NCBI GenBank assembly: GCA_032622095.1
Contig: CP136067.1
Location: 200,654,052 to 200,718,051 of the forward strand
DNA from: Siphonodentalium dalli
Taxonomy: Eukaryota > Mollusca > Scaphopoda > Gadilida > Siphonodentaliidae
Direction of reading: 5' to 3'
DNA: 64,000 nucleotides
The translations under genes and the position numbers were made by a program. Below, piece after piece: positions 16,939 through 54,805 of this stretch; position 1 is the first letter of the stretch; each line of letters starts with the position of its first letter. The notes beneath the pieces were generated by a model, which saw nothing but the letters and a program-made list of their open reading frames with translations, was not told where the DNA came from and did no database searches.

Positions 16939-17295
16939 CAAGCCTTGACATAGTGTGTCTGTCATTTGCAGAATGTGGTCCCCAGAGGATGAATTTAGTG
17001 ATACTACCCCGCATAGCGGGCTAGCATCACCAAATTCACCCTCTGGGGACCTCATTCTGCTTACACCTCAGCAGAATGAGGTTCCCAGAGGGTGAATTTG
17101 GTGATGCTAGCCCACTATGCAGGGTAGCATCACTAAATTCACCCTCTGGGGACCTCATTCTGCTTACACCTCAGCAGAATGAGGTTCCCAGAGGGTGAAT
17201 TTGGTGATGCTAGCCCACTATGCGGGGTAGCATCACTAAATTCACCCTCTGGGGACCTCATTCTGCAAATGACAGACACACTATTTCAAGGCTTG
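16939..17295 (+). mobile_element. hAT-like hairpin MITE with three hairpin units
   Basis: Ends CAAGCCTTGACATAGTGTGT and CACACTATTTCAAGGCTTG, flanked by CTTGTTGG and TTTGTTGG (7 of 8 match). Three consecutive hairpins of the type GCAGAATGAGG ... CCTCATTCTGC are joined by the spacer TTACACCTCA, where other short copies (21161, 25184, 54552) have two. The inner unit has been amplified in tandem. Confidence 0.9.
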
Positions 17296-21160: not shown

Positions 21161-21414
21161 CAAGCCTTGAAATAGCGTGTCTGTCATTTGCAGAATGAGG
21201 TCCCCAGAGGGTGAATTTAGTGACGCTATCCCGCATAGCGGGCTAGCATCACCAAATTCACCCTCTGGGGACCTCATTCTGCTTACACCTCAGCAGAATG
21301 AGGTTCCCAGAGGGTGAATTTGGTGATGCTAGCCCGCCATGCGGGGTAGCATCACTAAATTCACCCTCTGGGAACCTCATTCTGCAATTGACAGACACTC
21401 TATTTCAAGGCTTG
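21161..21414 (+). mobile_element. hAT-like hairpin MITE with perfect 8-bp target duplication
   Basis: Ends CAAGCCTTGAAATAGCGTGT and TATTTCAAGGCTTG are flanked on both sides by GCCATACA (21153-21160 and 21415-21422). Two hairpins are joined by TTACACCTCA. An 8-bp duplication with CA..TG ends is the usual hAT pattern. Confidence 0.95.
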
Positions 21415-22411: not shown

Positions 22412-23096
22412 TCACCCTGGTCGAGTGGTGGGTCCTCCCTGGTCGAGTGGTCCTGTTAATACGCTGGTGGGTCCTCCCTGGTCCTGCTAATACACTGGTG
22501 GGTCCTCCCTGGTCGAGTGGTCCTGCTAATATGCTGGTGGGTCCTCCCTGGTCCTGCTAATACACTGGTGGGTCCTCCCTGGTCGAGTGGTCATGTTAAT
22601 ACGCTGGTGGGTCCTCCCTGGTCCTGCTAATACACTGGTGGGTCCTCCCTGGTTGAGTGGTCCTGCTAATATGCTGGTGGGTCCTCCCTGGTCCTGCTAA
22701 TACACTGGTGGGTCCTCCCTGGTCGAGTGGTCCTGCTAATATGCTGGTGGGTCCTTCCTGGTCGAGTGGTCCTGCTAATACACTGGTGGGTCCTCCCTGG
22801 TCGAGTGGTCCTGCTAATACACTGGTGGGTCCTCCATGGTCGAGTGGTCCTGCTAATATGCTGGTGGGTCCTCCCTGGTCGAGTGGTCCTGCTAATATGC
22901 TGGTGGGTCCTCCCTGGTCGAGTGGTCCTGTTAATATGCTGGTGGGTCCTCCCTGGTCGAGTGGTCCTGCTAATACACTGGTGGGTCCTCCCTGGTCGAG
23001 TGGTCCTGCTAATACACTGGTGGGTCCTCCCTGGTCGAGTGGTCCTGCTAATACGCTGGTGGGTCCTCCCTGGTCGAGTGGTCCTGCTAATATGCT
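22412..23096 (+). repeat. 36-bp minisatellite, 215 bp upstream of the first coding exon
   Basis: The unit is GGTGGGTCCTCCCTGGTCGA plus GTGGTCCTGCTAATACACT, with CA/AT/CG variants. In the first third, full units alternate with shortened ones lacking GTCGAGTG. A 36-bp period keeps frames open, so long ORFs in two frames are repeat artefacts. It shares the core GGTGGGTCC(Y)GCT with the 29-bp array at 37944-39351. Confidence 0.95.
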
Positions 23097-23326
23097 GAAA
23101 TATTTTAATACTGGTTGTATTAGTTGTTACAAATCAACTATAATCAAAATGGTTATTCACGTTATTGTTTTAAATATGGATTGGGTTTTAAATCTAGGTG
23201 TTTGATTGAAATCCTCAAATTCTTTTTAATTTTCTGATTCTCAGTCTCTGTTCAATAAGCTAGCTATGTGATGTCGAGTCATCTAATTATTGCTTTATTT
23301 TATATTTACAGAGTCGCCGCTCCAAG

Positions 23327-23451
23327 ATGGCCGCTGTAGGAGAACAAATGCAAATTAGCAATCACACGATCGACAAAGTAACTAAGGCGAAAGTTACACT
23401 AGAAAACTACTATACAAATCTAGTCGCTCAGAATGAAGAGCGCGAACACCG
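23327..23451 (+). CDS. STK38: NDR-family serine/threonine kinase, first coding exon (residues 1-41 and part of 42)
   Basis: This exon encodes the N-terminus of an NDR kinase (STK38/STK38L; fly tricornered), an AGC-group kinase of the Hippo-like NDR/MOB pathway that controls cell morphology, cell cycle and neurite growth. The product contains SNHTIDKVTKAKVTLENYY (residues 11-29) and NLVAQNEERE, the conserved basic and helical segment that binds MOB1 in this family. The ATG lies in a good context (AAG before, G after), 15 bases after a TTTATATTTACAG acceptor at 23311. The 23312-23326 bases are thus 5' UTR and an upstream non-coding exon must exist. The donor is CG|GTAAGT at 23452, leaving phase 2. 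CAAGATGGCCGC around the start resembles a YY1 site. STK38 versus STK38L cannot be separated from this part. The next exon is at 44314; the kinase domain is outside the window. Confidence 0.9.
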
Positions 23452-23453
23452 GT

Positions 23454-23904
23454 AAGTTACGTTAGCAACCACCGGATCGGCAATGTATCTAAGGCGAAAA
23501 TTACGTTAGCAACCACCGGATCGACAATGTATCTAAGGCGGAAATTACGTTAGCAACCACCAGATCGGCAATGTATCTCAGGCGAAAATTACGTTAGCAA
23601 CCACCGGATCGGCAATGTATCTAAGGAGAAAATTACGTTAGCAACCACCGGATCGACAATGTATCTCATATGAAAATTACGTTAGCAACCACCGGATCGA
23701 CAATGTATCTCAGGTGAAAATTACGTTAGCAACCACTGGATCGGCAATGTATCTCAGGCGAAAATTACGTTAGCAACCACCGGATCGACAATGTATCTCA
23801 GGTGAAAATTACGTTAGCAACTACCGGATCGGCAATGTATCTCAGGCGAAAATTACGTTAGCAACCACCGGATCGGCAATGTATCTCAGGCGAAAATTAC
23901 ATTA
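23454..23904 (+). repeat. 44-bp minisatellite derived from the STK38 coding exon
   Basis: About ten tandem units of the form GCAACCACCGGATCGGCAAT followed by GTATCTCAGGCGAAAATTAC and GTTA begin directly at the exon's splice donor. Each unit aligns with exon bases about 23358-23404 (GCAATCACACGATCGACAAA, GTAACTAAGGCGAAAGTTAC), differing at roughly one base in five. The donor AAGTTAC (23454) is identical to the exon-internal AAGTTAC (23391), a 7-bp homology where the duplication could have been primed. Confidence 0.88.
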
Positions 23905-24030
23905 GCATGCACAACCACCAGATCGGCAATGTATCAAAGGTGAAAATTATGCTAGAAAACTATTACACATTACTCATAATTAAGAGCGCAAACACTGGTA
24001 ACTTGAGCGCGAACACCAGTGATTTCCCCA
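23905..24030 (+). pseudogene. Decayed duplicate of the STK38 first coding exon
   Basis: After the last 44-bp unit the similarity continues into the 3' half of the exon. AACCACCAGATCGGCAATGT encodes NHQIGNV, AAGGTGAAAATTATGCTAGA encodes KVKIML, and AAAACTATTACACATTA follows, giving ENYYT as in the exon. Then AAGAGCGCAAACACTGGTAAC matches the exon end plus donor, and GAGCGCGAACACCAGTGATTT repeats that end once more. A net loss of 7 nt before AAGAGCGC breaks the frame relative to the functional exon. A GGTAAC donor-like site remains. It is probably a dead copy; use as an alternative exon would truncate the protein. Confidence 0.75.
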
Positions 24031-24190
24031 TTAGTTATAAAAGGATACATTGGAATGGTTTATTATTCATCTGGAGGGATGTTCAGGAATTTTAAGTAGC
24101 CTTCAGACAGAAAATACTATATTTTCAGTACAATTGGATTCCTATTAATTCATGGGAAATGTTCATGTTATAAGTACAATGGCTTATATA

Positions 24191-24318
24191 TATAACCCTT
24201 TCATGACGGGAGATTCCTGTAATTTTGGAAAATCCTGTGCCAATACATTCTCTTATATATGCGAGGCTCCCTATGGGACAGGATCTTCAGTGCAGCTCCC
24301 ATCATGAAATGGTTTTAA
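24191..24318 (+). mobile_element. Family C TTAA MITE, internally deleted
   Basis: TATAACCCTTTCATGACGGG at the left and GCTCCCATCATGAAATGG at the right enclose one half-palindrome (AATACATTCTCTTATATATG then GGCTCCCTATGGGAC). Confidence 0.7.
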
Positions 24319-25183: not shown

Positions 25184-25437
25184 CAAGCCTTGAAATAGTG
25201 TGTCTGTCATTTGCAGAATGAGGTCCCCAGAGGGTGAATTTGGTGATGCTAGCCCACTATGCGGGGTAGCATCACTAAATTCACCCTCTGGGGACCTCAT
25301 TCTGCTTACATCTCAGCAGAATGAGGTCCCCAGAGGGTGAATTTGGTGATGCTAGCCTGCTATGCGGGGTAGCATCACTAAATTCATCCTCTGGGGACCT
25401 CATTCTGCAAATGACAGACACACTATTTCAAGGCTTG
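25184..25437 (+). mobile_element. hAT-like hairpin MITE with perfect 8-bp target duplication
   Basis: CAAGCCTTGAAATAGTGTGT and CACACTATTTCAAGGCTTG ends, flanked by CTCAAGTA at 25176-25183 and 25438-25445. Two hairpin units are joined by TTACATCTCA. Confidence 0.95.
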
Positions 25438-37929: not shown

Positions 37930-37943
37930 TCGATTTTTTTGCC

Positions 37944-39351
37944 TGAATTGCTATGATGTTGGTGGGACCCGATGAATTGCTATGATGTTGGTGGGACCCG
38001 ATGAATTGCTATGATATTGGTGGGTCCCGCTGAATTGCTATGATGTTGGTGGGACCCGATGAATTGCTATGATGTTGGTGGGTCCTGCTGAATTGCTATG
38101 ATGTTGGTGGGTCCCGCTGAATTGCTATGATGTTGGTGGGTCCCGCTGAATTGCTATGATGTTGGTGGGTCCCGCTGAATTGCTATGATGTTGGTGGGTC
38201 CCGCTGAATTGCTATGATGTTGGTGGGTCCCGCTGAATTGCTATGATGTTGGTGGGTCCCGCTGAATTGCTATGATGTTGGTGGGTCCCGCTGAATTGCT
38301 ATGATGTTGGTGGGTCCCGCTGAATTGCTATGATGTTGGTGGGTCCCGCTGAATTGCTATGATGTTGGTGGGTCCTACTGAGTTGCTATGATGTTGGTGG
38401 GTCCTGCTGAATTGCTATGATGTTGGTGGGTCCCGCTGAATTGCTATGATGTTGGTGGGTCCTGCTGAATTGCTATGATGTTGGTGGATCCTGCTGAATT
38501 GCTATGATGTTGGTGGGTCCTGCTGAATTGCTATGATGTTGGTGGATCCTGCTGAATTGCTATGATGTTGGTGGGTCCTGCTGAATTGCTATGATGTTGG
38601 TGGGTCCTGCTGAATTGCTATGATGTTGGTGGGTCCCGCTGAATTGCTATGATGTTGGTGGGTCCCGCTGAATTGCTATGATGTTGGTGGGTCCTGCTGA
38701 ATTGCTATGATGTTGGTGGGTCCCGCTGAATTGCTATGATGTTGGTGGGTCCCGCTGAATTGCTATGATGTTGGTGGGTCCCGCTGAATTGCTATGATGT
38801 TGGTGGGTCCCGCTGAATTGCTATGATGTTGGTGGGTCCCGCTGAATTGCTATGATGTTGGTGGGTCCCGCTGAATTGCTATGATGTTGGTGGGTCCCGC
38901 TGAATTGCTATGATGTTGGTGGGTCCTACTGAGTTGCTATGATGTTGGTGGGTCCTGCTGAATTGCTATGATGTTGGTGGGTCCCGCTGAATTGCTATGA
39001 TGTTGGTGGGTCCTACTGAGTTGCTATGATGTTGGTGGGTCCTGCTGAATTGCTATGATGTTGGTGGGTCCCGCTGAATTGCTATGATGTTGGTGGGTCC
39101 CGCTGAATTGCTATGATGTTGGTGGGTCCTACTGAGTTGCTATGATGTTGGTGGGTCCTGCTGAATTGCTATGATGTTGGTGGGTCCCGCTGAATTGCTA
39201 TGATGTTGGTGGGTCCTACTGAGTTGCTATGATGTTGGTGGGTCCTGCTGAATTGCTATGATGTTGGTGGGTCCTGCTGAATTGCTATGATGTTGGTGGG
39301 TCCTGCTGAATTGTTATGATGTTGGTGGGTCCTGCTGAATTGCTATGATGC
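37944..39351 (+). repeat. 29-bp minisatellite, about 48 units
   Basis: Unit TGAATTGCTATGATGTTGGT followed by GGGTCCCGC, with CCT, GAT and ACTGAGT variants. The ACTGAGT variant recurs in the second half in a two- to four-unit higher-order pattern. It starts 15 bp after the MITE at 37633. A stray unit, AAATTGCTATGATAAT, lies at about 37455. Confidence 0.97.
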
Positions 39352-45847: not shown

Positions 45848-45894
<47 letters not shown>

Positions 45895-47068
45895 CCACGG
45901 GAGCAAAAAAAGAAGAAAAAAAAGTAAACATAGACTATTCTAATGTATACTTTTATAACACACTCCTCTAACTAAATAATACATGAAATATTCTAATGCA
46001 TACTTTATAACACATTCCTCTAACTAAATAATACATGAAATATTCTAATGCATACTTTTATAACACACTCCTCTAACTAAATAATACATGAAATATTCTA
46101 ATGCATACTTTTATAACACACTCCTCTAACTAAATAATACATGAAATATTCTAATGCATACTTTATAACACATTCCTCTAACTAAATAATACATGAAATA
46201 TTCTAATGCATACTTTTATAACACACTCCTCTAACTAAATAATACATGAAATATTCTAATGCATACTTTTATAACACACTCCTCTAACTAAATAATACAT
46301 GAAATATTCTAATGCATACTTTTATAACACATTCCTCTAACTAAATAATACATGAAATATTCTAATGCATACTTTACAACACATTCCTCTAACTAAATAA
46401 TACATGAAATATTCTAATGCATACTTTACAACACATTCCTCTAACTAAATAATACATGAAATATTCTAATGCATACTTTATAACACATTCCTCTAACTAA
46501 ATAATACATGAAATATTCTAATGCATACTTTACAACACATTCCTCTAACTAAATAATACATAGACTATTCTAATGTATACTTTTATAACACACTCCTCTA
46601 ACTAAATAATACATAGACTATTCTAATGTATACGTTTATAACACACTCCTCTAACTAAATAATACATGAAATATTCTAATGCATACTTTATAAAACACTT
46701 TCCTCTAACTAAATAATACATGAAATATTCTAATGCATACTTTACAACACATTCCTCTAACTAAATAATACATAGACTATTCTAATGTATACTTTTATAA
46801 CACACTCCTCTAACTAAATAATACATAGACTATTCTAATGTATATTTTATAACACACTCCTCTAACTAAATAATACATGAAATATTCTAATGCATACTTT
46901 ATAACACATTCCTCTAACTAAATAATACATGAAATATTCTAATGCATACTTTTATAACACATTCCTCTAACTAAATAATACATAGACTATTCTAATGTAT
47001 ATTTTATAACACACCCCTCTAACTCAGTAATACATGGAATATACTAATTTATATTTTATAACACACTG
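45691..47068 (+). repeat. 53-bp minisatellite with a 43-C tract
   Basis: Unit CTCCTCTAACTAAATAATAC, ATGAAATATTCTAATGCATA, CTTTTATAACACA, with a second unit type (ATAGACTATTCTAATGTATA). About 25 units, degenerate at the 5' edge (from about 45700) and 3' edge. A run of 43 C (45848-45890) followed by an A-rich stretch interrupts the degenerate first units. The C run may be misassembled in length. Confidence 0.95.
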
Positions 47069-53656: not shown

Positions 53657-53901
53657 TGAAATAGTGTGTGTCATTTGCAGAATGAGGTCCCCAGAGAGTG
53701 AATTTAGTGATGCTACCCCGCATAGCGTGCTAGCATCACCAAATTCACCCTCTGGGAACCTCATTCTGCCGAGGTGTAAGCAGAATGAGGTTCCTGGAGG
53801 GTGAATGTGGTGATGTTAGCCCGCTATGCGGGGTAGCATCACTAAATTCACCCTCTGGGGGCCTCATTCTGAAAATGTCAGACACACTATATCCAGACTT
53901 G
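53657..53901 (+). mobile_element. hAT-like hairpin MITE, short form
   Basis: GTGAAATAGTGTGTGTCATTT and CACACTATATCCAGACTTG. Two hairpins are joined by CCGAGGTGTAAGC. The left terminal bases are missing. Confidence 0.85.
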
Positions 53902-54551: not shown

Positions 54552-54805
54552 CAAGCCTTGAAATAGTGTGTCTGTCATTTGCAGAATGAGGTCCCCAGAG
54601 GGTGAATTTAGTGATGCTACCCCGCATAGCGGGCTAGCATCACCAAATTCACCCTATGGGGACCTCATTCTGCTTACACCTCAGCAGAATGAGGTTCCCA
54701 GAGGGTGAATTTGGTGATGCTAGCCCGCTATGCGGGGTAGCATCACTAAATTCACCCTCTGGGGACCTCATTCTGCAAATGACAGGCACACTATTTCAAG
54801 GATTG
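54552..54805 (+). mobile_element. hAT-like hairpin MITE, short form
   Basis: CAAGCCTTGAAATAGTGTGTC and CACACTATTTCAAGGATTG with two hairpins joined by TTACACCTCA. Flanks GTTTGTGG and GATATGTT do not match, so one flank may have been lost or recombined. Confidence 0.9.

Follow-up and report, generated by a model that had tools for sequence, protein, structure and literature searches.

A probable coding-exon-derived minisatellite at the splice donor of an NDR-type kinase exon in Siphonodentalium dalli

In the stretch of Siphonodentalium dalli DNA analyzed here (64,000 nucleotides of contig CP136067.1, assembly GCA_032622095.1; hereafter, the window), a tandem array of 44-bp units stands directly behind the splice donor of a coding exon that resembles part of a protein kinase. 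The locus raises the question of whether a conserved coding exon has supplied the repeat units of its own intron and, if so, by what route. A reading made from the letters of the DNA (the sequence-only reading) had claimed that the kinase exon seeded the array, that the last unit runs on into a dead exon copy with its donor, and that a shared 7-bp word provided a plausible junction of slippage or unequal exchange. In our opinion, it is highly probable that the array is an intronic minisatellite derived from the coding exon at its donor and that it arose through two successive local errors. The coordinates of the features discussed are given in Table 1.

Table 1. Features of the locus and of a dispersed repeat (positions within the window)
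Feature	Position	Strand	Remarks
Founder exon, putative first coding exon of an STK38/NDR-family kinase	23312-23451	+	ATG 23327; acceptor AG 23310-23311; donor GT 23452-23453
Donor and first junction	23452-23461	+	GTAAGTTACG, then TTAGCA
Ten 44-bp units	23462-23901	+	derived from exon 23355-23397
End copy	23902-24030	+	11th unit, then decayed 3' half of exon with dead donor (GT 23998)
TTAG, presumed resumption point of the original intron	24031-24034	+	
Presumed extent of the first tandem duplication	23355-23461	+	107 bp: exon 3' part, donor, 10 bp of intron; TTAG edges
Dispersed 103-bp repeat	16968-17266, 21190-21385, 25213-25408, 53677-53871, 54581-54776		TRF

The kinase exon and its surroundings

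Read from its ATG, which lies 15 bp behind the 5' end of the exon at 23312, the founder exon encodes MAAVGEQMQISNHTIDKVTKAKVTLENYYTNLVAQNEEREHR. Human STK38 matched the window by tblastn at 23354-23452 with 22 of 33 amino acids identical (E 4e-9), and phmmer returned the STK38-like (NDR2) chain 5xqz_C as the sole row for the exon peptide (E 7e-4). By both searches, the peptide contains the conserved N-terminal motif that precedes the kinase domain. The reading frame, the start and the splice sites of the exon are intact. In a scan of the + strand of the window with crude weight tables, the donor ranked third among 4002 GT dinucleotides (score 6.4) and the acceptor twelfth among 3180 AG dinucleotides (score 7.7); translation carried through the donor into the intron meets a TAA immediately. 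Judged from its sequence, 23312-23451 is apparently where the coding sequence of an NDR-type gene begins; the remainder of that gene, if present, would lie more than 40 kb downstream. The same tblastn query gave no further kinase exon in the window with E below 1.4 (five rows away from the locus) and no kinase-domain exon in the 40.5 kb downstream to the window end. The only Pfam match of the 42-aa exon peptide, to Tantalus, was rejected as sub-threshold (E 0.079; 13.4 bits, where 32.8 is required).

TRF reports another minisatellite, with 18 copies of a 39-bp unit, at 22426-23097. It ends 214 bp upstream of the start of the founder exon, which is thus flanked by arrays on both sides. The word TGGTGGGTCC is common to the consensus unit of this array and to that of a 29-bp array at 37943-39350. 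TRF further lists a 103-bp repeat (GCAGAATGAGGT...) of self-complementary appearance, dispersed over five places in the form of tandem doublets or triplets, and a run of 43 C (45848-45890) situated 45 bp upstream of a 52-bp array at 45936-47067.

Copies of the exon behind its donor

The array behind the exon is wholly intronic. TRF describes it as a 44-bp tandem repeat at 23457-23949 (11.1 copies, 91% matches), that is, as head-to-tail units of tens of base pairs in one array, as expected of a minisatellite; cutting at TTAGCA yields ten units of exactly 44 bp, followed by the end copy from 23902. The term "satellite", which the sequence-only reading had applied to it and which implies many long arrays throughout a genome, is overstated for what is a single 10-unit array in the window.

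Both the ten units and the end copy were copied from the 3' part of the exon. In each of the units, 33-36 of 43 bases (36 of 44 in one unit) are identical to exon 23355-23397/8, and the alignments have scores of 36-51, against a maximum of 28 among 500 dinucleotide shuffles per unit; since every unit scores above all its shuffles, the likeness to the exon is not due to chance. When the doubled unit consensus was compared with the window, with 23462-24034 masked, the exon was the best match (E 6e-7) and the next one had E 0.58, so that nothing comparable to the units occurs elsewhere in the 64-kb window. It had been proposed that the units span SNHTIDK to KVTLEN. They do cover SNHTIDKVTKAKVT, but they stop before LEN, and LENYYT is found in the end copy alone.

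The alignment of the end copy (23905-24030) to the exon is, like that of the units, better than all shuffled sequences: it scores 67, and none of 2000 shuffles exceeds 30. A blastn search of the window with the exon extended by 24 bp of intron matched 23912-24004, donor included (E 4.7e-12). The order of the exon is kept in the end copy through LENYYT to the donor, where GGTAACTT is retained, and 45 of the 54 gap-free bases are identical and 9 differ. The decay is nevertheless visible in a 6-bp insertion in the 11th unit, near the start of the end copy, in a 7-bp deletion relative to the exon in the 3' half, and in a 21-bp local duplicate at the dead donor (23984-24004 and 24005-24025); the 6-base gap that opens the alignment of the end copy is an effect of where that copy was cut. 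These comparisons bear out the proposals that the exon seeded the array and that the last unit continues into a dead exon copy.

One might instead regard the array as a dispersed 44-bp satellite, possibly borne by a mobile element, which inserted beside the exon and resembles it by chance or through later gene conversion. The window is indeed rich in other tandem repeats (46 TRF rows), and MITEs carrying tandem repeats have been described in a clam (Satovic and Plohl 2013). However, the 64-kb window contains no second locus, the array begins directly behind the donor, the end copy is collinear with the 3' half of the exon and its donor, and the alignment scores far exceed those of shuffles; such an insertion is, in our view, highly unlikely. 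An 18-bp piece of the unit has one exact match in viral_contigs (L001), which we take as chance. DNA folding of two units made no case for a hairpin on either strand (z 1.37 and 1.83; 183 and 197 of 200 shuffles, respectively, fold at least as well), and scans of the window with Rfam, at the gathering threshold, and for tRNAs gave 0 matches each.

As for the direction of copying, the sequence comparison points to the conserved exon as the source and to the array as the derivative. Over the homologous 43 bases, the exon and the unit consensus differ by six residue-changing codons and one silent codon, the first codon being filled with the exon base A, although most junctions have G there; a second silent change, ACA to ACG, is this junction base. 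The consensus masks some variation, for the exon's GAC is kept in 4 of 10 units and its AAG in 3 of 10. At the six residue-changing codons, human STK38 shares the residue of the exon in three cases (T of NHT, T of VT and V of KVT) and differs from both sequences in the other three; in none does it carry the residue of the unit. Likewise, this protein scores 50.4 bits by tblastn against the exon, 26.9 bits (E 0.069) against the end copy and 23.5 bits against a stretch across the first two units.

That the end copy is still readable as an exon copy by tblastn, together with the lack of a further kinase exon in the tblastn search of the window, might suggest that it is a decayed alternative or mutually exclusive exon duplicate, or else a piece of a partial, pseudogenized copy of a kinase gene. 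The copied sequence starts inside the exon at TTAG, though, and hence presumably brought no acceptor with it; none in the array scored well. This makes a stand-alone exon at the end copy unlikely. The founder exon, for its part, retains its reading frame, start and splice sites, which speaks against this explanation. Taken as a whole, this explanation appears very improbable to us.

Junctions and a two-step origin

The word AAGTTAC was correctly located by the sequence-only reading at 23391, within the exon, and at 23454, across the donor. These are its only occurrences on the + strand of 23200-24200, and they lie 63 bp apart; the whole + strand of the window holds 13. Sharing a 7-mer with the founder exon is not very rare for the flank of a GT (83 of 3968, or 2.1%). 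Given the presence of both words, one scenario would be a single step of direct slippage between them. The period should then be 63 bp and the units should contain the part LENYYT..EHR, whereas the period is 44 bp in 10 of 10 units and that part is present in 0 of 10. Direct 63-bp slippage is ruled out by the period, and we regard such a single-step origin as extremely unlikely. The proposed exchange between 23391 and 23454 thus fails in its direct form; it can be refined into one in which the word acts between the donor and a duplicated copy, after a 107-bp duplication.

The junctions suggest the following course of events. In the first step, a tandem duplication of about 107 bp would have occurred between the TTAG of the exon (23355) and a TTAG of the intron (now at 24031), placing a second exon 3' part, with its own donor, behind the real donor. 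TTAG is found at 23355, at 23462, where the copies start, and at 24031, and the flank preceding 24031 (CACCAGTGATTTCCCCA) can still be aligned with the donor flank preceding 23462 (CACCGGTAAGTTACG). The presence of TTAG at each predicted edge, together with alignable flanks, fits a tandem duplication of 23355-23461; the 4-bp microhomology, taken alone, would argue only weakly for this step.

In the second step, TTAC or AAGTTAC behind the real donor and its counterpart in the second copy, 44 bp apart, may have allowed slippage or unequal exchange. Only the intervening exonic part would then have been multiplied, with units that end in TTACG and restart with TTAGC, each repeating the donor junction. 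This is the arrangement seen in the array: TTACGTTAGC is present at the donor junction and recurs at 9 of the 10 that follow, the last one being TTACATTAGC, while the counterpart in the exon is TTACACTAG. The identity of the inter-unit junction with the donor junction, rather than with the exon's own sequence, counts in favor of the two-step origin. The relation 107 - 63 = 44, on the other hand, follows from the alignment and hence is no independent proof. All ten units have AAATTAC and the end copy has a decayed form of the word, with perfect AAGTTAC in none of them; therefore, the 7-bp word may already have been imperfect when the array grew.

Subsequently, the units would have drifted and been partially homogenized, and the end copy and its donor would have decayed, with the real exon remaining intact. 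Pairs of units show 0-5 differences in 44 bases, compared with 8-11 in 44 between unit and exon, which fits an old duplication followed by later spread or homogenization of the units; we consider this course of events likely. Homogenization is also hinted at, in one haplotype, by the identity of the units at 23682 and 23770.

Splicing and comparison with known arrays

The suggestion that units or the end copy act as splice decoys finds little support. More broadly, one can imagine the array being active in splicing, with its units or the end-copy donor providing the kinase pre-mRNA with decoys or with regulatory or recursive sites. By the same crude tables, the CAG/GTGAAA sites formed by variants of the units at 23714 and 23802, which lie exactly two units (88 bp) from each other, score 3.1, GGTGAAA at 23940 in the end copy scores 2.9, and the end-copy donor, with its retained motif, scores 2.4 (rank 122 of 4002 GT). 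Many of the repeats known as mirages, as described for amphioxus, contain AG/GT signals that are potential cryptic sites (PMC3087553), and a C. elegans minisatellite is reported to be over-represented close to alternative splicing regions (PMC4039745). The real donor is far stronger than any of these sites, however, and acceptors are poor: between 23453 and 24042, no AG scores above -2, and the AG at 24043, beyond the end copy, reaches 0.8 (rank 293 of 3180). Moreover, splicing from the end-copy donor would give a TAA immediately following CGG, and the amphioxus mirages are reported to leave regular splicing undisturbed (PMC3087553, PMC3902484). A role in splicing is therefore very unlikely. 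By a related and extremely improbable view, based on the unit variants, the array would be a frozen intermediate on the way to splice sites, in which C-to-T changes in GGCG made the CAG/GTGAAA sites and these, lying within a very long intron, could become recursive or cryptic sites in the kinase transcript. Most likely, the array has no function and is probably just carried along, without effect on fitness, in an intron of great length (more than 40 kb, provided that the remainder of the gene is located downstream).

The closest parallels known to us from published accounts are the mirages of amphioxus, minisatellite-like tandem duplications at exon-intron boundaries beside an intact exon; it has been suggested that introns can originate from them (PMC3087553, PMC3902484). 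They are described in Adh3, the globin genes BflGb6 and BflGb9, and troponin C, and PGBD5 has been likened to them. Like these, the present locus is a tandem repeat from DNA that spans an exon-intron boundary, inasmuch as the end copy and the presumed founder duplicate comprise both exon and donor. Many, although not all, mirage units carry the boundary or a splice signal, whereas 0 of 10 units do so here, donors being confined to 23452 and the decayed 23998; the splice site is gone from the unit, which consists almost entirely of exon sequence. Since the published cases also vary, a boundary within the unit appears to be a typical rather than strict feature of mirages. Another trait by which mirages are recognized is instability of length between haplotypes; in the one haplotype at this locus, the two identical units give a hint of homogenization. 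Further differences are that the gene is of the NDR kinase type and that a two-step origin is suggested. By our own rating of the cases as published, the kinase-exon array joins the mirage-type minisatellites, being of the same place and kind, with a unit that lacks the splice site.

The established model of minisatellite birth of Haber and Louis (1998), as summarized in PMC6947457, has repeats of 5-10 bp flanking a motif lead to a first duplication and then to expansion. Short flanking repeats seem to have started the array in the present case as well; here, by contrast, a conserved coding exon served as the seed, and two different short repeats seemingly acted in turn, the first of only 4-5 bp. 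Human segmental duplications are described as containing internal tandem repeats at exon-intron boundaries, which are discussed as a route to new introns and can alter transcripts (PMC2812944). The position of minisatellite units at such a boundary is shared with the kinase exon, but the array here is wholly intronic and is not known to affect the transcript. Earthworm metallothionein genes combine untranscribed duplicates of the fourth exon with intronic minisatellites (PMC12783039) and so resemble our case in having exon duplicates that are missing from the final transcript and an intronic minisatellite in the gene family; unlike for the present array, an exon origin of the minisatellite is not stated in the available portions of that report. 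Nothing similar was found in the portions available of a report on clam hemoglobin genes (PMC4732748). Among the matches listed in the literature, as far as their available text goes, none describes a minisatellite of exon origin, whether in an STK38/NDR gene or in a mollusk, which is weak evidence of absence.

The significance of the locus lies in the fact that the birth of a minisatellite is unusually legible in it: founder exon, amplified unit and what is left of the first duplicate have all been preserved, and one can suggest, from the junctions, in which order the steps took place. The accounts cited above describe exon-edge minisatellites from amphioxus and from human segmental duplications. 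If the structure recurs in related species, it could serve to date the individual steps and to test how common minisatellites of this kind are in other animals, as well as whether they supply new splice sites.
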